Shown here piece after piece: positions 11,701 to 32,200 of a stretch of DNA of 64,000 bases. The DNA is taken from positions 1 through 64,000 of the forward strand of contig JAPLFQ010000025.1 of assembly GCA_026390595.1 (NCBI GenBank). Reading direction: 5' to 3'. Every line of letters begins with the position of its first letter. Position 1 is the first letter of the stretch. The stretch comes from Ignavibacteriales bacterium (GTDB lineage: Bacteria > Bacteroidota > Ignavibacteria > UBA10030). Both the position numbers and the translations under genes were made by a program. The notes under the pieces were generated by a model. It had not been told where the DNA came from, did no database searches, and saw nothing but the letters and a program-made list of their open reading frames with translations.

Positions 11701-13125
11701 GAGGAATTGCTGGGAAATGTCCTCTCGGCGGCCTACCAAAGGGAAGGACCGGATGATGATCTCAGGTTGTACCATCAACGCTTTGATGCGAGTGAGACCA
11801 TCTCCAATCTTTTCGGCTCGGCGACACTGCGGGATGGCGAATCCATCGACCTTGACATTTCCAGTTCGTTCATCGAATCCGCGGGTCAGGAAAAGCTGCT
11901 CCTCAGCTTGTTCCGCGATGTGACGGAAAAACGAAAGTCAGAGAAACGCCTGGAGGATGAGCGCAATCTCCTGCGCACGATCATCGATGCGATTCCGGAC
12001 GAGATTGCGGTCAAAGACACCGAGAGAAGGTTCATTGTGGTGAATTCGGGGACAGTGAAGGCCTTCATCCGGAATTCTGCAGATGAAATCATCGGGATGA
12101 AGGATGAAGACCTGATTCCCGAGCATCTCGTGAAAGATTGGAGCGAGGAGGAGAACACTGTTCTGGCGGGTGGTAAGAGTTCCATGAACAGGGTCGCAAA
12201 CAAGATCGATTCTGAGACCGGAGCGATTGAGCGAAGCCTGATGGTTTCAAAAGTTCCGCTGAAGGACCGCGAAGGCAAGATCATCGGCCTCGTGGGCATC
12301 AATCGGGATATCACAGCGCTCAAGCAAGCAGAAGAAATGCTGGAAAAAGAGCGTACGTTGCTGCTCACTCTCATCGAAAACATACCCGACGAGGTCTGTC
12401 TGAAAGATTTGAGGCATCGATACCTCACGGCCAACCGTGCGGCGATGAAGGCCCTGGGGGTGAAGTCGCTCGAGGCCCTGATCGGAAAAACCGATCAGGA
12501 TTTTGCCCCACAAGGCCTGGCCCAAGAACATGTTGAAGAGGAGGAAGCCATACTGGAATCGGGGAAACCACTGATCAACCGTGAACGAATCAAGATTGAT
12601 CCCAAAACAGGTCAGGTTGTGAAGTGCCTCCTGACGACCAAAGTCCCTGTCAAGGACAACACCGGTGCAGCGATTGGCATCCTGGTTGTCAATCGACATA
12701 TTACCGAGCGCAAACAAATGGAAGAATTACTCCGCGCTTCTGAGCAGAAATTCAGAGCGCTGTTTGAGGAGTCCAAGGATCTGGTCTATTTTAGTACAGT
12801 AGGAGGAAAGCTCCTCGACATCAACCCTGCCGGGATCGAGTTGCTCGGGTATGCATCCAAGCAAGAAACCCTATCGATTGACATGGCAAATGAAGGATAT
12901 GCTGACAGCGAAGACAAGGGGCGATTCGATCGGCAAATGGCCCAGCATGGATTTGTGAAGGACTATGAGGTCGTGCTGAGACGCAAAGATGGGGAAAGGA
13001 TCACGGTACTCGAAACAGCAACGGCAGTGATGAATAACAAGGGGAACGTTGTCCAATACCGTGGCGTCATGCGCGATGTCACGAAACAGAGGCAGCTTGA
13101 ACGCCAGTTCCTCCAATCCCAGTAG
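8800..13125 (+). CDS. REC-PAS-GAF-PAS(8) sensor protein, severed from its kinase by an in-frame TAG
   Basis: About 1441 residues. The N-terminal receiver has its phospho-acceptor Asp in VIVSDYSMPEFDG. One PAS unit follows, then a GAF domain (about residues 265-415) and eight further PAS/PAC units. The protein ends ...LERQFLQSQ at TAG 13123-13125, exactly where relatives run on into the kinase H-box (LAGGIAHDFNN). The kinase is encoded in the same frame from GTG 13138. I choose ATG 8800, with TGAGGA at 8789-8794, over the in-frame GTG at 8758. As written it has no output domain and would have to act on the downstream kinase by contact. A sequencing error at the TAG cannot be excluded. Confidence 0.9.
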   Translation: MENANPLRILFVEDLPTDAILAEREIRKSGLEFSSQRVDTKDAFLKALEEFRPDVIVSDYSMPEFDGMQALKLSLQRDARLPFILLTGSMNEETAVACMKAGASNYVIKEHIKRLPFAVKEALEQKKTRVAMDEADRALRESEERYRTLFESMDEGFCVVEMLNDPDGKAFDYRFLEINPGFEKHTGLQQALGKTIRQMVPNHDAHWFEIYGKVARTGKAIRFEKPATAMERYYDVYAYRIGGEGSQRVGILFNDISERNRAERLTEALFEISRAVYSTENVDELFRHIHRVLSSILQANNFSIALLTDDGKTLYFPYKSDEKDTNDRPAIGVDDPHSLTVDVLKTKSSVLLDETKLLDRYATDTSKVWGTAPKCWLGVPLMIRETVIGVMSVQDYQKSSAYSQKDLNIFESAAGQIAIAIERKRAQDALRESEHRTRTFLDSTSDMAFLKDDKFRHILANRALCKFHGKTEDEIKHKKDFDLMSEEAALRCRKTDEQTLLSNALTVNEELIGDRCFETVKFPVAIATGKVGIGGYIRDVTERRRAEEKIRLSEQHLKSYLDNAGDPIYVLEAATGRIRNCNVRACQDLGYSMDELLKLSASDIEVNLSSDKIDAIHHEAISAKVRTVEGAHKRKDGTMFPVEIRLSSMSPAQPELIIAVVRDVTERRRSEKALRMQSAALEAAANAIVITDCDGVVEWVNQAFVTLTGYTLEESVGRNPRELVKSGKHDQQFYKDLWDTILAGGTWRGQIINRRKNGSLYSEEQTITPLCDVDGKVSHFIAIKEDITERQRTEDLLAESERKFKWLFDYAPVAYHVLTPEGTIWNVNVRWCESLGYSKDEALGKSVFDFITESERSIARASFETKKKDISSIRTRNERRYVSKDGVVKTFLVGDFVTVDSQGKITSVQTTMEDITERKKIEHDLRLSEERFRSVWDNSADGMRLTNREGRIIDANASFCKLVRIPREELLGNVLSAAYQREGPDDDLRLYHQRFDASETISNLFGSATLRDGESIDLDISSSFIESAGQEKLLLSLFRDVTEKRKSEKRLEDERNLLRTIIDAIPDEIAVKDTERRFIVVNSGTVKAFIRNSADEIIGMKDEDLIPEHLVKDWSEEENTVLAGGKSSMNRVANKIDSETGAIERSLMVSKVPLKDREGKIIGLVGINRDITALKQAEEMLEKERTLLLTLIENIPDEVCLKDLRHRYLTANRAAMKALGVKSLEALIGKTDQDFAPQGLAQEHVEEEEAILESGKPLINRERIKIDPKTGQVVKCLLTTKVPVKDNTGAAIGILVVNRHITERKQMEELLRASEQKFRALFEESKDLVYFSTVGGKLLDINPAGIELLGYASKQETLSIDMANEGYADSEDKGRFDRQMAQHGFVKDYEVVLRRKDGERITVLETATAVMNNKGNVVQYRGVMRDVTKQRQLERQFLQSQ

Positions 13126-13130
13126 AAGGA
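13126..13130 (+). promoter_or_regulatory. Ribosome binding site created at the gene split (AAGGA)
   Basis: AAGGA starts at the base after the TAG stop and lies 7 nt before the GTG at 13138. It fits translation re-initiation of the kinase half after the sensor half has been read. Confidence 0.6.
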
Positions 13131-13137
13131 CAGCATT

Positions 13138-14250
13138 GTGACGCTCGCGGGCGGTATCGCGCACGATTTCAACAATAATTTGGGGATGATTCTTGGCCAA
13201 CTGGCGTTACTGGAGCGGACAAGAGAGAACACAGTCCAATTCGAAGAGAGCGTTTTTTCAATCAACAAGGCAGTGGAGCGCGGCGCTTCGCTGGTACGCC
13301 AGATTCTTACCTTCGCACGAAAAACTGAGGCAGCCCTCGAGCCGGTGAACATCAACTCGGCAGCCAAGGAATTGGCCAAGATGATTGAAGAGACGTTCCC
13401 CAAAATGATCACGGTGACGCTCCGGCTCGACAAAACGATTCCCGTGGTCTCCATGGATCCGACCCAGCTTCATCAGGCACTGCTCAACCTCTGTGTGAAC
13501 GCCCGCGATGCAATGAACGGCAAAGGAACCCTTATCATCGCGACGCATCTGGCCCTGGGACGTGATGTATCGTCGCGCTTCCCGAAAGCGGGTTCGAGTC
13601 ACTATGTACAAGTGAGTGTATCTGATACCGGTACCGGGATGGATGAGGCGACCAGGCTGCGAATATTCGAGCCGTTCTTCACAACAAAGGAAAAGGGAAA
13701 GGGGACGGGATTGGGCTTGGCGGTTGTGTACGGCGTCATCCAGGCGCACAATGGATTCATCGATGTAGAGAGCACGCCGGGCGCAGGGACGAAGTTCCAC
13801 CTGTTCTTTCCTGTTGCCGAAGGTATTATCCTGAAAACCGCGGAAGCCGCGGATAAGAATCAGGACCTGCCGGGGGGCACGGAGACTATCCTTGTCGTTG
13901 AAGATGAGGACGTTCTCCGCGACCTTCTCACCAAGCTCCTGGAGCTGCATGGATACACGGTCATCGCGGCGTCAGATGGTGTGGAGGCGGTCAACCGGTT
14001 CAGCGAACACGAGAATCAGATTGACCTGTTGCTTTCGGACATGGGCTTGCCGAAAAGGAACGGCTGGGACGCATTCAAGCTGATGCAAAAAACGAAACCG
14101 GGCGTTCGGGCTCTTATGGCCAGCGGGTACATCGAGCCGGGGCAGAAATCGGAAATCCTCAAGTCGGGTGTGAGGCGGTTCATTTCCAAACCCTATCGGA
14201 TGGAAGAAGTCCTGAAAGCCATTCGGGAAACGCTGGACGAAAAGGAGTAG
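13138..14250 (+). CDS. Hybrid histidine kinase half: HisKA, HATPase and receiver domain
   Basis: 370 residues starting at GTG. The phospho-acceptor His is only about residue 9 (TLAGGIAHDFNNNLGMILG), so the helix that normally leads into HisKA belongs to the preceding ORF. The ATPase motifs are intact (NLCVNARDAM, VSDTGTGMD, GTGLGLAVVYG). The C-terminal receiver (about 243-368) has its Asp in LLLSDMGLP and Lys in FISKPYRMEE. The H-box variety is the one usual in PAS-rich hybrid kinases. It has no sensor of its own, so control presumably comes from the protein ending at 13125. Confidence 0.9.
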   Translation: MTLAGGIAHDFNNNLGMILGQLALLERTRENTVQFEESVFSINKAVERGASLVRQILTFARKTEAALEPVNINSAAKELAKMIEETFPKMITVTLRLDKTIPVVSMDPTQLHQALLNLCVNARDAMNGKGTLIIATHLALGRDVSSRFPKAGSSHYVQVSVSDTGTGMDEATRLRIFEPFFTTKEKGKGTGLGLAVVYGVIQAHNGFIDVESTPGAGTKFHLFFPVAEGIILKTAEAADKNQDLPGGTETILVVEDEDVLRDLLTKLLELHGYTVIAASDGVEAVNRFSEHENQIDLLLSDMGLPKRNGWDAFKLMQKTKPGVRALMASGYIEPGQKSEILKSGVRRFISKPYRMEEVLKAIRETLDEKE

Positions 14251-14300
14251 GGGGTGCCCGTCACCTATTGTCGGTGATCATTGGGGTGACGGTCACTTCT
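14251..14300. repeat. GTGAC-n-GTCAC palindrome pair
   Basis: GGGGTGCCCGTCAC at 14251-14264 and the palindrome GTGACGGTCAC at 14286-14296 belong to the same type as 2846-2992. Together they border the sensor cluster on both sides. Confidence 0.5.
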
Positions 14301-14364
14301 CCACCGAGATGGCTTCTGGGACGATAATTATACATTAACTGATTCATTATTGAAAAGGTGCGCG

Positions 14365-15747
14365 TTGGAAAAACCCTCGATTTCCATCCTTGCCGTCGAT
14401 GACGAAGAGACCATCCTACAGCCTTTGAAAAAAGTCCTTGAGATTGAAGGCTACTACGTGAATACGGCTGCGGATGGCCGCATCGCGATTACCATGCTGC
14501 AAACCCTTCCGTTTGACCTAGTGCTTCTCGATGTCATGATGCCCAATCTCGGAGGCGTTGAGGTGCTGAAGTTCATCAAGGACCAGCATCTTGATACAGA
14601 GGTAATCATGCTCACCGCCGTTCATGAAGTCAAGACTGCGGTGGAATGCATGAAGCTCGGTGCGTACTACTACATTACGAAACCATACAATACCGACGAC
14701 CTTCTTGCTCTGATCGAAAGAGCAATTGAGCGGAAGCGGCTGGTGATACAGAACAAAGGGTTGAAGCGGCAGATTGCTCTCAGTGTGTTACCCACAAGCA
14801 TGGTGGGACAAAACAAGTCCTTTCTCAAGATGATGCATCTCGCTTCTCGTGTCGCATCGACTGATTCCACTGTTCTCATTCAGGGAGCAAGTGGCACAGG
14901 CAAAGAACTCGTTGCTGAGTTCATCCACGTCAACAGTCCGCGAAAAGACCAGGCATTTCTTGCGGTCAACTGTTCTTCAATTCCCGAGTCATTGCTCGAG
15001 AGTGAGCTCTTCGGTCACGAAAAAGGGTCATTTACCGATGCATCAAACAAGAAACAGGGATTGGTCGAGATAGCCGATGGAGGGACTCTCTTTCTGGATG
15101 AGGTTGCGGAGATGCCGCTGTCGATTCAACCGAAGCTTCTCCGCTTCCTGCAGACAGGCGAGTTTCGACGTGTGGGAGGGAACGTGAATTTGAAATCGGA
15201 CGTCCGGCTCGTTTCGGCAACCAATCGCGACCTTCGCCAGGAGGCCACGGAACGAAGGTTTCGGGAAGACCTGCTCTTCCGCCTGAATGTCATTACTCTG
15301 CAGGTGCCGTCGCTCTGTGAGCGTAAGGATGACATTCCCGCGTTAGTCGATCATTTCCTCGGATTTCATGCGGGAGCCCGGCAGCCGAAGCGAGTCGAAG
15401 AACGAGCGCTGGAAATCTTGATGAAATATGATTGGCCGGGCAACGTGCGTGAGCTGGGAAACGTGATCGAGCGTGCCGTGATACTATCGCAGGATGACGT
15501 AATTTGTTTTGACGATCTGGCCATGCCGCTGCGTTCTGCCTCAGCAGGGGAGCCGGTTCCGAGTCTCAGTTCGACGGGACCGCGAGCGGGATCAGCGATC
15601 TCTCTGCTCGATATTCAGAAAGTGCACGTGGAGGCTGTGCTGGTTTCGGTGAACTGGGACAAGGAACTTGCCGCTAAGATCCTGGGTATTCGTATCAATA
15701 CGCTCTATGGCAAAATACGGTCCTACCGCCTCAAGAAGCCGAAGTAG
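14365..15747 (+). CDS. NtrC-family sigma-54-dependent response regulator
   Basis: About 460 residues. The receiver (Asp in LVLLDVMMPN) is followed by an AAA+ core with Walker A GASGTGKE and Walker B GGTLFLDEVAE, and a Fis-type HTH (AAKILGIRINTLYGKIR). The sigma-54 contact loop reads GSFTDA instead of GAFTGA. TTG 14365 with AAAAGG at 14353-14358 is the likelier start; an in-frame TTG lies at 14350. It probably receives phosphate from one of the nearby kinases and activates sigma-54 promoters such as the two at 18992-19006 and 19332-19347. Its stop codon TAG is the second to fourth base of the REP array that follows. Confidence 0.93.
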   Translation: MEKPSISILAVDDEETILQPLKKVLEIEGYYVNTAADGRIAITMLQTLPFDLVLLDVMMPNLGGVEVLKFIKDQHLDTEVIMLTAVHEVKTAVECMKLGAYYYITKPYNTDDLLALIERAIERKRLVIQNKGLKRQIALSVLPTSMVGQNKSFLKMMHLASRVASTDSTVLIQGASGTGKELVAEFIHVNSPRKDQAFLAVNCSSIPESLLESELFGHEKGSFTDASNKKQGLVEIADGGTLFLDEVAEMPLSIQPKLLRFLQTGEFRRVGGNVNLKSDVRLVSATNRDLRQEATERRFREDLLFRLNVITLQVPSLCERKDDIPALVDHFLGFHAGARQPKRVEERALEILMKYDWPGNVRELGNVIERAVILSQDDVICFDDLAMPLRSASAGEPVPSLSSTGPRAGSAISLLDIQKVHVEAVLVSVNWDKELAAKILGIRINTLYGKIRSYRLKKPK

Positions 15748-15837
15748 AAGTCTGTCCCACATGTAAGAAGTCCGTCTTCTCGCCGAGTTTAACCTCAGCA
15801 AGAAGACGGACTTCTACACGGGACGGACTTCTCCCCG
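15744..15837. repeat. REP-like hairpin array, left of the RAYT gene
   Basis: It begins GTAGAAGTCTGTCCCAC. A perfect 15-bp inverted repeat follows, AGAAGTCCGTCTTCT at 15766-15780 and AGAAGACGGACTTCT at 15801-15815, and then a half copy GGACGGACTTCT at 15821-15832. A GTAG tetranucleotide at the foot of a hairpin is the classic signal of REP elements processed by RAYTs. It also gives the stop codon of the upstream regulator and may terminate its transcript. Confidence 0.85.
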
Positions 15838-15898
15838 TCTTTTTCTGCCAACTCTTTTCCGAGCAGAAAGCGCTGCTTATTCCTACCTTCTGGCAGCG

Positions 15899-16474
15899 AT
15901 GAAGTACCTTCCCGACAACTACTACCATATCTACAATCGTGGAAACGACGGTCATCGGATATTCCTCGAACCGGAGAACTACGCGTTCTTCCTTCGGCGC
16001 TTACGCAAGTATTGTGACCGACCTCCCGCACAACTTGTTGCCTACGCTCTCATGCCCAATCACTACCATGCAATCGTATTACTCGATGGTACTTCAGACT
16101 TTTCGAATGTCTTGAGAGCGTTCACCACATCATATGTCCGGGCATTCAACACGTGGCATGGTCGAGTCGGGTATCTCTACCAGGGCAATACAAAGGCGAA
16201 GTTGATTGATAGCGATGAGTATCTGATTCATCTTTGTCGCTATATCCACCTCAACCCTGTCAGGGCTCACCTGGCGGATTGTCCTGAGCAATGGAAATAT
16301 TCGGATTATCGTGAGTGGATCTCAGACTCTACTCCTAGCAAGAAGAGATGTGTGAAGGTGAGATCGATGAATTTTGAATCTGGCCCGCAGTATCAGGCCT
16401 TTGTGATGGACTATGCAGCTGAGGAGAGGATGAGGGCCGAAATCGAGGGGAGGCTGTTTGACGAGTCCAGGTAG
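15899..16474 (+). CDS. REP-associated tyrosine transposase (RAYT, Y1 family)
   Basis: 191 residues. The HUH motif is PNHYHAIVL, and the block YIHLNPVRA with nearby tyrosines (DEYLIHLCRYIHL) is the family signature. YHIYNRGNDGHRIF and GYLYQGNTKAKL are also typical. RAYTs are single-strand DNA transposases, usually single-copy per genome, that move short REP hairpins in trans. Near-identical hairpin arrays lie immediately on both sides, and the gene's own TAG stop is part of the right array. The ORF is full length with no lost motif, so it may be active. Confidence 0.93.
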   Translation: MKYLPDNYYHIYNRGNDGHRIFLEPENYAFFLRRLRKYCDRPPAQLVAYALMPNHYHAIVLLDGTSDFSNVLRAFTTSYVRAFNTWHGRVGYLYQGNTKAKLIDSDEYLIHLCRYIHLNPVRAHLADCPEQWKYSDYREWISDSTPSKKRCVKVRSMNFESGPQYQAFVMDYAAEERMRAEIEGRLFDESR

Positions 16475-16577
16475 AAGTCCGTCCCACAAGTAAGAAGTCC
16501 GTCTTCTCACCGAGTTTGTGCGTAGTAAGAAGACGGACTTCTACATCTGACGGACTTCTACATTTGACGGACTTCTC
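16471..16577. repeat. REP-like hairpin array, right of the RAYT gene
   Basis: It repeats the left array: GTAGAAGTCCGTCCCAC, then the inverted pair AGAAGTCCGTCTTCT (16493-16507) and AGAAGACGGACTTCT (16528-16542). Two extra half copies, TGACGGACTTCT, lie at 16548-16559 and 16565-16576. It sits between two convergent genes and could terminate both. Confidence 0.85.
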
Positions 16578-19347: not shown

Positions 19348-19388
19348 CTTCTCGCTGCAGCAAATCAAACAGCAAGATGGAGAAGACA

Positions 19389-20159
19389 ATGTTCGGACGC
19401 TCAAGACATGGAAATCGATTCACAGCGGTGATTGCTCTATTACTGGCCCTCCAGATTCATGCTGCTCTCGCAGGCAACACACTGATCCCGAAAAGAACTT
19501 CGAACAATGTCATCTCGGTTGAGCTTACAAGCACCGATGCCATTGCGGGTTTCCAATTCTCGATCAATACCCGAGGTGGTGCCATGCTGCAGGCATACGA
19601 AGGAACTGACCGGTCCATCGCGGCAGGAATGGAATTCTATCAATACCTCAAGAACGATTCGACACTCAATGTTGTGATTCTGGCTCCGTATCGTTCGTCG
19701 TTGCCGACAGGTGAAGGCGCCGTCGGAAAAGTGTCTTTCACGCTCAGGACATTTTCAACGGCGGACACGGTTCGAGTGTTCTTGACTGGAGTGGTAATCT
19801 GCGATGCAAATGCCAAATATCTTGAGGTCTCTGCCGGGATGCTGGCCTGGAATAGGCAGGAAAGCAACGAAGTGAAACTCGCGACATTCGCACTCGAACA
19901 GAACTATCCGAACCCCTTCAATCCATCTACAACGATTTCCTACAAACTGGACACACCAGCAAATGTGCGACTGGTAATCTACGATGTCGCCGGGCGTTTG
20001 ATCAACACACTTGTAAGCGAATACCAAACTGAGGGCCGGTATGCCGTGCAGTGGAATGCCGGCGCTGTCCGCGGCCCAATGCTTGCTTCGGGAATGTATT
20101 TTGCCCGATTGCAGGTCGATGGCCTGGTTGCGACGAAGAAGATGATTCTGGCCAAGTGA
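19389..20159 (+). CDS. Secreted cohesin-like protein with T9SS sorting domain
   Basis: About 256 residues. A signal peptide (VIALLLALQIHAALAG) is followed by a domain of about 130 residues whose pattern (NVISVELTSTDAIAGFQFSI, GEGAVGKVSFTLRTF, FLTGVVICDA) resembles cohesin-type beta-sandwiches. The tail EQNYPNPFNPSTTISYKL ... MYFARLQVDG ... TKKMILAK is a type A T9SS sorting domain. The start ATG 19389 has GGAGAAG in front; ATG 19377 does not. It should be carried over the outer membrane by T9SS and anchored or released. A sigma-54 promoter precedes it. Binding partner unknown; the cohesin call is by pattern only. Confidence 0.8.
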   Translation: MFGRSRHGNRFTAVIALLLALQIHAALAGNTLIPKRTSNNVISVELTSTDAIAGFQFSINTRGGAMLQAYEGTDRSIAAGMEFYQYLKNDSTLNVVILAPYRSSLPTGEGAVGKVSFTLRTFSTADTVRVFLTGVVICDANAKYLEVSAGMLAWNRQESNEVKLATFALEQNYPNPFNPSTTISYKLDTPANVRLVIYDVAGRLINTLVSEYQTEGRYAVQWNAGAVRGPMLASGMYFARLQVDGLVATKKMILAK

Positions 20160-23194: not shown

Positions 23195-24712
23195 GTGGCC
23201 ATCGCGCTGCTTGCTGTGTTTCTCTGTGGACACTCGAGCGCCGGACTGCACACGGGCTCCAGGAGCTCCATCGGCGCCCCCCAGAAGCATGAAGTGTTGG
23301 CAAGCCGCGTCGTCCGACCGGGAGTCACATACTACTACCTTGCTCCCGCAAGCGGTCCCTGGAGAATCTATGTTCTCGAGATCGACCTCAAACACGCCGA
23401 GCTTGAAATTACAGCGTCGAGGGCATTCGACCGGCTTTTTGGCCGAGAAAAAACCACGTCGATCGCGCGTCGGCACGAAACGCCGGACCGGACAGTGGTT
23501 GCTGCGCTGAATGCTGATTTCTTCAGTCTGACAACCGGCGAGAACGAGAACAACTGTGTCATCGAGAAAGAGTTCGTCAAAGGGACGAAGATGACCGGGT
23601 CTCCGAACGATATCTTCGACAACATCCATTCTCAGTTCGCTCTTACCGTCGACCGCAAGCCACTGCTTGAGAGGTTCCAATTTTCCGGCAAAGCATTCAT
23701 CGGGCAGAAAGCTGCCATCGATTTGTTCGGTGTCAATGACGCGCCGAAATCAAACACGGTTGTGCTCTTCAACCGCTATTTTGGACCCTCGACGCCAACC
23801 GACACCGTGAAAATGGCTATCAACGAGGTAAGCCTGCACGCCTTCAAGAGAAGGATGGATACTGTCTATGCGTTCGTGACAGGAAAGTCGACCTCAGGAA
23901 GTTCTGCTCTCGGGACTGAGACGCTCGTGCTTTCCGGATATAACCTCTCTCCCCAACATGGGATGACAACCGCAAGCGTCGGTGATACAGTGAAACTCTG
24001 GCTGGGCACCAACCTGAACACCGGTATTCCGGGAACGCTTGTCGGCGGCTGGCCGAGAATCGTCCTCAACGGGAAAAACATCGGGGGGATGACCGATTCC
24101 ATCGAAGGTACTTTTCCTTCCTTCTCATCCCAAAGAAACCCGCGAAGCGGCGTTGGCTTTTCAAGGGACAGCACAACCGTCTATTTCTTTGCCGTGGACG
24201 GCCGACAAACAACAAGCGTAGGCATGACGCTGTACGAATTTGCCGATATCATGATTGCGCAGGGGGTTTATCAGGGCTTGAATCTTGATGGCGGAGGATC
24301 GACGACCTTCGTCCTTGAAGGGGCGATAATGAACGTCCCCTCCGATGCGACCGGCGAACGCCCTGTTGGCAACTGTCTTCTTCTTACCGCGCCAGGACAG
24401 GTGACCTCAGCTATCAGGAACCAGGACTTGCCGGCAGCGTTTTCGCTCTCGCAGAACTTCCCAAACCCGTTCAATCCCGCCACAGCTATCAGCTATCAGC
24501 TATTAGCTATTAGCTCTGTAACGCTTGAAGTGTATGACGTTTTGGGGAGAGAAGTCATTACCCTGGTCGATGGGGTTCAGGCACCTGGAAGCCACTCGGT
24601 GAGGTGGGATGGCCGAGACGGCAGGGGTGAGGCGGTTTCGACGGGAGTTTATCTTTACCAGCTCCGTGCCGGAGGTTCGGCGATGACCAAGAAGATGGTC
24701 TTGTTGCAATAG
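23195..24712 (+). CDS. Secreted phosphodiester glycosidase (NAGPA/DUF2233 family) with T9SS tail
   Basis: 505 residues. A signal-like N-terminus (MAIALLAVFLCGHSSAG) precedes a core with the family signposts VVAALNADFFSL, RSGVGFSRDS and GLNLDGGGSTTFV. Members include the human uncovering enzyme that removes N-acetylglucosamine from phosphodiesters; bacterial ones act on cell-surface or biofilm glycans. A type A T9SS sorting domain ends the protein (SQNFPNPFNPATAISYQL ... GVYLYQLRAG ... TKKMVLLQ). The GTG start at 23195 has a poor ribosome site, so the start is uncertain. A 7-bp repeat array lies inside the sorting domain at 24484-24518. Confidence 0.85.
   Translation: MAIALLAVFLCGHSSAGLHTGSRSSIGAPQKHEVLASRVVRPGVTYYYLAPASGPWRIYVLEIDLKHAELEITASRAFDRLFGREKTTSIARRHETPDRTVVAALNADFFSLTTGENENNCVIEKEFVKGTKMTGSPNDIFDNIHSQFALTVDRKPLLERFQFSGKAFIGQKAAIDLFGVNDAPKSNTVVLFNRYFGPSTPTDTVKMAINEVSLHAFKRRMDTVYAFVTGKSTSGSSALGTETLVLSGYNLSPQHGMTTASVGDTVKLWLGTNLNTGIPGTLVGGWPRIVLNGKNIGGMTDSIEGTFPSFSSQRNPRSGVGFSRDSTTVYFFAVDGRQTTSVGMTLYEFADIMIAQGVYQGLNLDGGGSTTFVLEGAIMNVPSDATGERPVGNCLLLTAPGQVTSAIRNQDLPAAFSLSQNFPNPFNPATAISYQLLAISSVTLEVYDVLGREVITLVDGVQAPGSHSVRWDGRDGRGEAVSTGVYLYQLRAGGSAMTKKMVLLQ
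24484..24518. repeat. 7-bp tandem array inside a T9SS sorting domain
   Basis: AGCTATC (twice), AGCTATT (twice) and AGCTCTG lie in exact 7-bp phase. They encode the stretch SYQLLAISS between the NPFNP motif and the VTLEVYD strand. Confidence 0.85.
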
Positions 24713-30928: not shown

Positions 30929-32200
30929 ATGAACCTGGAACGTGGCAGCAGAAAGCATCTGTGTACCGGTAGGTTACGAAACCTTCGCGGGCCGCCCCGT
31001 CTGATCCGTGTGGAATGGATCGCAGGGGCTATTCTCTTCCTGTTCTTTAGCCGTGCGCCGGGCGCTTTGGCTCAGGTGGACACCATGCACGCCTTCTACC
31101 CGCTCGGGAAGGGAAACGCCTGGGTATACCGTGACTTTTCGTACTTCGCGAGCGAAGCAGCAGACACTATATCCGCTTCGATCCTCGGTGATACAACGTT
31201 CCAGGGAAGATCGTATGCGGTCACGCACAGGCTTTCGCACCGCTATCAGAGTTCGGCACTGACCTTCGAACGAATTGACTCAAGCGGTGATGTCTATAGG
31301 TTCGATACCTACTATGGGACTCCGCAGCTCTGGTATCGATTGAGTGATATTTCGCGAACAGTCTGGCAGCGTGGAACCATGAACGTGCGATTCGATTCAT
31401 CAACATACCGGATGGTGCTTGGCAGGCGAGCCCATGTCCTCTTTGTCAATTTCTACAGTCCAGTAGACAGTGCATTTGCGCATTCAACGATTCAGGAACA
31501 ACTGGCCGAGGGCATTGGACTTATTGGTGCCTTGTGGCCTGAGGGGTCCTCGCGGAGTCTTCTCGGCGCCAAAATAAATGGCATCAGTTATCCAGGAGAA
31601 CCGCCGGCACTCATCTCCCCGGCTGACAGTGCAATCAACGTCTCTGCTAGTCCGATGCTCCGATGGATTCCAACTGTGGGAGCAACTTACTATGTCGTCC
31701 AGGTCTCCCCATACACTTCGTCGTTTATGACGTTTGTATTCGATGACACAACCTCGGCCAGCTCTCAAGTCGTAGGCCCTTTGAATTACGGGACCAAATA
31801 TTACTGGCATGTTTCCGCAGTCTCCAACGGCGTTCGGGGGGCGTGGTCGCAGGCGAGGCAATTTACGGTGGGTCAAACAAGTTCGGTTGAACCAGCAGAC
31901 AATTCGATACCAGCACAATTCGGATTGGGTCAGAATTACCCCAACCCCTTTAATCCAACGACGGCGATCAGCTATCGGCTGTCAGCCGTCGGATTGGTGA
32001 CACTGAAAGTATTTGACGTTCTCGGCAAAGAGGTTTCCACACTCGTGAATGAAATAGGCCAACCGGGTGTCTACAAAGTGCAGTGGGATGGTTCTGGGAT
32101 GCCCAGCGGAATCTACTTCTACCGACTGCAAGCTGGAGATGCCTCGACAGGCTCAGCACGAGGGTTGTTGGAGGCGAAGAAAATGATCTTGCTCAGGTGA
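30929..32200 (+). CDS. Secreted protein with FN3-like domain and T9SS tail
   Basis: 423 residues. A long basic n-region leads to a signal helix (WIAGAILFLFFSRAPGALAQ). A region of about 180 residues that I do not recognise follows, then an FN3-like fold (PALISPADSAINVSASPMLR ... KYYWHVSAV). The type A T9SS sorting domain has GQNYPNPFNPTTAISYRL and AKKMILLR. The sorting domain carries an in-frame insertion DASTGSARG from a dispersed repeat (32138-32164) and 7-bp repeats at 31967-31994. The ATG has AGGA 5 nt upstream; GTG 31010 would give a tighter signal peptide. Confidence 0.8.
   Translation: MNLERGSRKHLCTGRLRNLRGPPRLIRVEWIAGAILFLFFSRAPGALAQVDTMHAFYPLGKGNAWVYRDFSYFASEAADTISASILGDTTFQGRSYAVTHRLSHRYQSSALTFERIDSSGDVYRFDTYYGTPQLWYRLSDISRTVWQRGTMNVRFDSSTYRMVLGRRAHVLFVNFYSPVDSAFAHSTIQEQLAEGIGLIGALWPEGSSRSLLGAKINGISYPGEPPALISPADSAINVSASPMLRWIPTVGATYYVVQVSPYTSSFMTFVFDDTTSASSQVVGPLNYGTKYYWHVSAVSNGVRGAWSQARQFTVGQTSSVEPADNSIPAQFGLGQNYPNPFNPTTAISYRLSAVGLVTLKVFDVLGKEVSTLVNEIGQPGVYKVQWDGSGMPSGIYFYRLQAGDASTGSARGLLEAKKMILLR
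31967..31994. repeat. 7-bp tandem array inside a T9SS sorting domain
   Basis: ATCAGCT, ATCGGCT, GTCAGCC and GTCGGAT, at the same place in the sorting domain as the array at 24484. Confidence 0.7.
32138..32164. repeat. Dispersed repeat CTCGACAGGCTCAGCACGAG inserted in frame
   Basis: A 27-bp insert relative to other sorting domains. It encodes DASTGSARG and is nearly the same as 39937-39963. Confidence 0.75.

Follow-up and report, generated by a model that had tools for sequence, protein, structure and literature searches.

Does the in-frame TAG that parts the sensory from the catalytic region of a hybrid histidine kinase at this locus mark the division of one gene into two, or only the interruption of one? 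The window (the whole stretch of DNA analysed, 64,000 nucleotides, C25:1-64000) belongs to a genome of 4.77 Mb assembled in 36 contigs. In the original prediction, the TAG was read as coming with its own ribosome-binding site and start codon, and the arrangement was taken for an evolved gene fission with coupled translation. Read directly, positions 13108-13176 are TTC CTC CAA TCC CAG TAG AAG GAC AGC ATT GTG ACG CTC GCG GGC GGT ATC GCG CAC GAT TTC AAC AAT, so that the predicted positions and codons of the TAG, the AAGGA, the 7-nt spacer and the GTG are exact. All these elements share one frame, and the kinase ORF lies in the same frame as the sensor ORF (Table 1).

Table 1. Features of the split kinase locus (positions in the window)
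Feature	Position	Strand	Basis or remark
Sensor ORF, 1455 aa	8758..13125	+	ORF list; GTG 8758 as listed, true start may be downstream
TAG stop	13123..13125	+	Lys/Arg column in 103/103 aligned homologues
12-nt gap: SD-like AAGGA (13126-13130) and 7-nt spacer (13131-13137)	13126..13137	+	Derived from conserved codons; unusual Met/Leu-to-Lys change
GTG, proposed kinase start	13138..13140	+	Column is Gly in 95 and Ala in 8 of 103 homologues
Free-standing hybrid kinase ORF, 370 aa	13138..14250	+	Pfam HisKA, HATPase_c, receiver
NtrC-type response regulator: receiver, sigma-54 AAA+, Fis HTH	14365..15747	+	Pfam; TTG start at 14365

The stop falls between the domains of what would normally be one protein. 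According to Pfam, the sensor ORF carries an N-terminal Response_reg domain, a GAF domain and then multiple PAS domains, ends in ...LERQFLQSQ-TAG, and contains no match to HisKA or HATPase. The 370-aa ORF that follows holds HisKA (32.9 bits), HATPase_c (82.7) and a C-terminal Response_reg (78.2), all of which pass the cut-off, together with intact catalytic motifs and the phospho-acceptor His, which is residue 9 of its own ORF as predicted. The catalytic equipment of a hybrid kinase is therein complete, with the sensor no longer on the same chain, as the TAG parts the PAS repeats from HisKA. DHp helix 1 is incomplete, since 8 residues precede the His if the GTG is the start, and the HisKA match starts only at position 5 of the model. 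From this GTG, the N-terminus is predicted to read fMet-TLAGGIAHDFNNN...; no other standard start retains the His, the next in-frame ones being TTG 13180 and ATG 13186. Neither further stops nor frameshifts are present in the kinase ORF.

The ancestor was fused. The nearest homologue (G002:C179), from the same genus and 68% identical, is a single chain that reads CAG AAG ATG GAG AGC ATC GGT ACG at this place, and it is the syntenic orthologue, given that the same NtrC-type sigma-54 regulator follows in both genomes. The original prediction had proposed the fusion state of homologues as a check, and this orthologue and all others examined are fused at the junction; the TAG position is a sense codon in every homologue recovered from the genus and family. 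In an alignment of 104 sequences, the TAG column is occupied by Lys (77) or Arg (26) in the 103 homologues, and the next column by Met (63), Leu (25), Ile (7), Thr (5), Val (2) or Ser (1), where the window has Lys. The column of the GTG, which is Gly or Ala in the homologues, is Val in the window.

The same picture emerges from the order as a whole. Among its 98 genomes, Gly occupies the start-codon position in 536 H-boxes of the form G-x-L-A-x-G-[IV]-A-H-D-F-N-N, and NTG is found there in two cases, the window and a fused hybrid kinase of another genome (L161; G122:C18:80573-80611, minus strand), which reads QKMDSIVTLAGGIAHDFNN and is the sole other instance of GTG/Val in this column. Val at the start position is rare yet tolerated in a fused protein. 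Among these 98 genomes, the stop itself is seen only in the window. A search for recurrent splits in 395 genomes of the phylum and the 98 of the order found none with exact-motif patterns, which are blind to other codons and to diverged H-boxes, and a scan of genome contigs turned up relatives at no more than about 40% identity. Three other short HisKA ORFs on the same contig, whose open-frame lengths had hinted at recurrent fission, were set aside: the one at C25:21406 has its receiver first and nothing abnormal upstream, and those at C25:67241 and 236710, in each of which a same-strand, receiver-like match immediately precedes HisKA, were grouped with it. Elsewhere in the same genome (G000:C20:92651-93295, L029), an in-frame TAG lies between HATPase and receiver, apparently in ordinary adjacent kinase and regulator genes. 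On the alignments and motif counts, the split is derived, a single event and so far unique.

How remarkable is the start site? The 16S rRNA of the same genome ends in GGATCACCTCCTTTCT, for which the Shine-Dalgarno (SD) sequence is AGAAAGGAGG; AAGGA is therefore a 5-nt anti-SD match at good spacing. GTG and TTG starts with SD-like sites are present elsewhere in the window, and the gene pair at 32200/32212 has a similarly short gap. The junction also shows what is looked for in a coupled pair, namely, two genes on the same strand, a short gap, and an SD and start beside the stop (12-nt gap, AAGGA-7-GTG). The chance level was estimated by treating each codon of 25 window ORFs in turn as if it were a stop and scoring an in-frame ATG, GTG or TTG no more than five codons on, with the SD at 4-10 nt spacing. 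Any in-frame start occurs within that distance for 26% of codons, one with a 4-nt SD match for 3.9%, and one with a 5-nt match for 1.6%. The combination of stop and restart is thus unusual, not prohibitive, as 1.6-3.9% of codons possess it by chance. In addition, a nonsense change in most relatives would create TAG-ATG at once, because 63 of the 103 carry ATG after the Lys. Such an ATG directly after the TAG would be a better restart, and it is absent from the window, where Lys (AAG) at the usual Met position provides AAGGA instead. Both unusual changes suit a start site, with Met-to-Lys yielding AAGGA and Gly-to-Val yielding GTG. Taken together with the Val of the fused L161, these figures show as too strong the earlier argument that no start site would be expected to accompany a random nonsense mutation.

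The kinase half itself is not decaying. Of the constrained columns past the GTG, 0/99 hold a residue unseen in relatives, compared with 2/4 across the gap and the GTG itself, where Lys has replaced Met/Leu and Val has replaced Gly; the difference has Fisher p = 0.0011 in what is a small test, resting on four gap sites and on one of four entropy thresholds tried (p 0.001 to 0.024). Over the last PAS and the kinase, the window deviates at 2 of the 76 columns that are at least 90% conserved, one of them being the start codon. A scan in fixed blocks of 6 residues gave p = 0.0015 when the stop was included and p = 0.22 when it was left out; the Fisher comparison of the gap codons addresses the question more directly. 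A third damaging change, Ile-to-Asn at His+5 (FNNNLG), was considered and dropped, as Asn stands there in 37/103 homologues, a set partly picked by an FNNN-containing pattern. Tajima-type relative-rate counts against the G002 orthologue with four outgroups indicate acceleration in neither half, the kinase half having 26 changes unique to the window and 25 unique to G002. Pairwise dN of the kinase is 0.20, and dS is saturated at about 1.7, so constraint before the split is inseparable from constraint after it, and the stop is undatable. The lost constraint and piled-up lesions of a pseudogene are absent downstream, a result that a very recent pseudogene would share. Given that a half left untranslated for long enough to lose two of four gap codons should also have lost many of the 99, these patterns favour a kinase ORF that is still translated from the GTG.

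Accordingly to be weighed is a reading in which a single-chain hybrid kinase was split in this lineage, and the kinase ORF is still translated from GTG 13138 as a soluble protein of 370 aa; we hold this tentatively, at a probability of roughly 0.47. The event itself, known from a single assembly, is probably a lineage-specific gene fission, with a recent nonsense mutation as the main rival. Of the evolved fission originally proposed, the ancestral fusion, the retained constraint on the kinase and the confinement of changes to the gap and start stand, whereas the elegant device, in which the stop arrives with its restart, is weakened.

According to the main rival, this strain has only just lost the fused kinase and produces little or no active enzyme, so that the locus is an early pseudogene and the start site a coincidence aided by the Lys-Met-Glu-Ser-Ile-Gly codons. 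The genome is rich in similar hybrid kinases (56 HisKA matches, more than a dozen close paralogues), which would make the loss tolerable. The restriction of the event to one genome, the chance frequency of a start with SD and the truncated DHp helix all agree with such a loss, and a very recent stop would look alike apart from the two gap changes. These changes are what it accounts for poorly, as a neighbouring Met codon must also become Lys and a neighbouring Gly codon Val, both of them conserved, while 99 constrained sites downstream remain untouched; nor is either half rate-accelerated. A recent loss is possible, if somewhat doubtful. An error of sequencing or assembly, or a mixture of strains, at 13123-13140, with the real gene fused, would fit a single assembly in 36 contigs and the clustering of several odd base changes. 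It is less likely because it would have to produce three separate substitutions in 18 bp and leave the constrained sites of the next 1.1 kb untouched; the changes are substitutions only, with no frameshift, and close paralogues are intact in the same assembly. We regard such an artefact as unlikely. The stop could also be leaky, with low-level UAG read-through yielding a little full-length hybrid kinase beside much sensor-only protein, given that the halves share a frame with nothing else lost and that the read-through protein aligns with fused relatives over the whole tested length. TAG is an ordinary stop here, however, also ending the kinase ORF at 14248-14250, which rules out reassignment of the codon; no recoding RNA structure was found at the junction (fold z-score +0.87), and read-through leaves unexplained the lost constraint at the Met and Gly codons, both of which lie inside the full-length protein. 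Leakiness is very improbable.

Under the fission reading, the ancestor would have been a single-chain hybrid histidine kinase of the order receiver-GAF-PAS repeats-HisKA-HATPase-receiver, in which a nonsense change, five codons ahead of the conserved H-box Gly, made the cut. After termination of the sensor ORF at the TAG, ribosomes would re-initiate, or initiate locally, at AAGGA-N7-GTG, and the product would be a soluble 370-aa kinase-receiver protein on which purifying selection acts. His9 is most likely still autophosphorylated, and the phosphate would pass to the protein's own receiver and/or to the adjacent sigma-54 regulator, probably the output partner of the kinase. The split, the intact ORFs, the fused ancestor and the lack of decay are observed, and from them we infer that the GTG is used for translation and that the shortened DHp dimerises and is active; continued control of the kinase by the sensor half in trans is speculative. 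More specifically, the C-terminal helix of the sensor (...QRQLERQFLQSQ) and the shortened kinase helix 1 might reassemble as a nicked DHp bundle, with re-initiation setting the ratio of the two proteins and free kinase escaping sensor control, an elaboration to which we give little credence.

In an AlphaFold2 model of the 370-aa kinase (pLDDT 82, pTM 0.49), helix 1 spans residues 2-27 and helix 2 spans 32-63; the His-bearing hairpin is present, with helix 1 short relative to helix 2. The presence of only 8 helix 1 residues before the His counts against the fission reading, as does the Val at the start column in the fused L161.

Between the kinase and the sigma-54 regulator lies a gap of 114 nt (14251-14364) with an inverted repeat, CCGTCACC...GGTGACGG; the corresponding gap is about 5 nt in the fused orthologue of G002, and no second copy of this spacer was found in the genome. 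Beyond the regulator, a Y1 (IS200-like) transposase ORF (15899-16474) sits within 15744-16576 with the same palindromes on both sides, GTAGAAGTCCGTCTTCT at 15764-15817 and 16491-16544 (4 matches against 0.01 expected), and this segment is laid out as a REP-associated tyrosine transposase between its REP hairpins. Further on, ORFs in 19377-20159 and 23195-24712 end in NYPNPFNPSTTISY...- or NFPNPFNPATAISY...-type C-terminal domains, which we take to resemble type IX secretion sorting domains.

Several known systems bear on the fission reading, each in part. Split histidine kinases have been described, including CheA3/CheA4 of Rhodobacter sphaeroides and proteins with HisKA only or HATPase only (PMC3591291). 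As in CheA3/CheA4, the functions of one histidine kinase would reside on two proteins here, but the CheA3/CheA4 cut parts phosphotransfer from ATP binding and places them on different, complexed proteins, whereas HisKA, HATPase and receiver stay together in one ORF at this locus and the sensor alone is detached. Interrupted coding sequences (ICDSs), among them that of the Mycobacterium tuberculosis sensor kinase Rv0601c (PMC2277376), are similar in that a sensor kinase, continuous in its homologues, is broken by an in-frame stop or a frameshift; they are mostly read as decay, in contrast to the fully conserved downstream ORF with its own start site seen here. Termination-reinitiation pairs share the short gap, the common strand and the SD near the stop, and often encode subunits of one complex (PMC10666635). 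In that work, a range of -8 to +10 nt is taken as predictive of coupling and +11 to +20 nt as highly gene-specific; the 12-nt gap falls outside the former and inside the latter, and strict control of the ratio by re-initiation is therefore only a candidate.

PAS hybrid kinases of the CckA type belong to the same DHp family (QAQKM..IGQLAGGVAHDFNN) and have the same PAS-HisKA-HATPase-receiver order. A CckA construct without both PAS domains retains kinase activity in solution (PMC4853435), which by analogy makes activity of a sensor-less kinase plausible in this CckA-like family. CckA is naturally one chain, however, and in the closest solved core (5idj), the His is chain residue 19, with 18 residues before it compared with 8 here. 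A brief search of the open-licence literature found no natural case in which DHp helix 1 is cut and an entire kinase-receiver ORF remains with a start of its own. At present, the case consists of a single lineage-specific event in one assembly. Should the two proteins both be produced and work together, a single-chain sensor kinase would have been caught in the act of becoming a sensor and a separate kinase, and it would be simple to test whether a nicked DHp remains able to signal and how conserved coding sequence gives rise to a restart site. If true, the cut would lie inside the first DHp helix, unlike those of the described split kinases, which fall between kinase domains.
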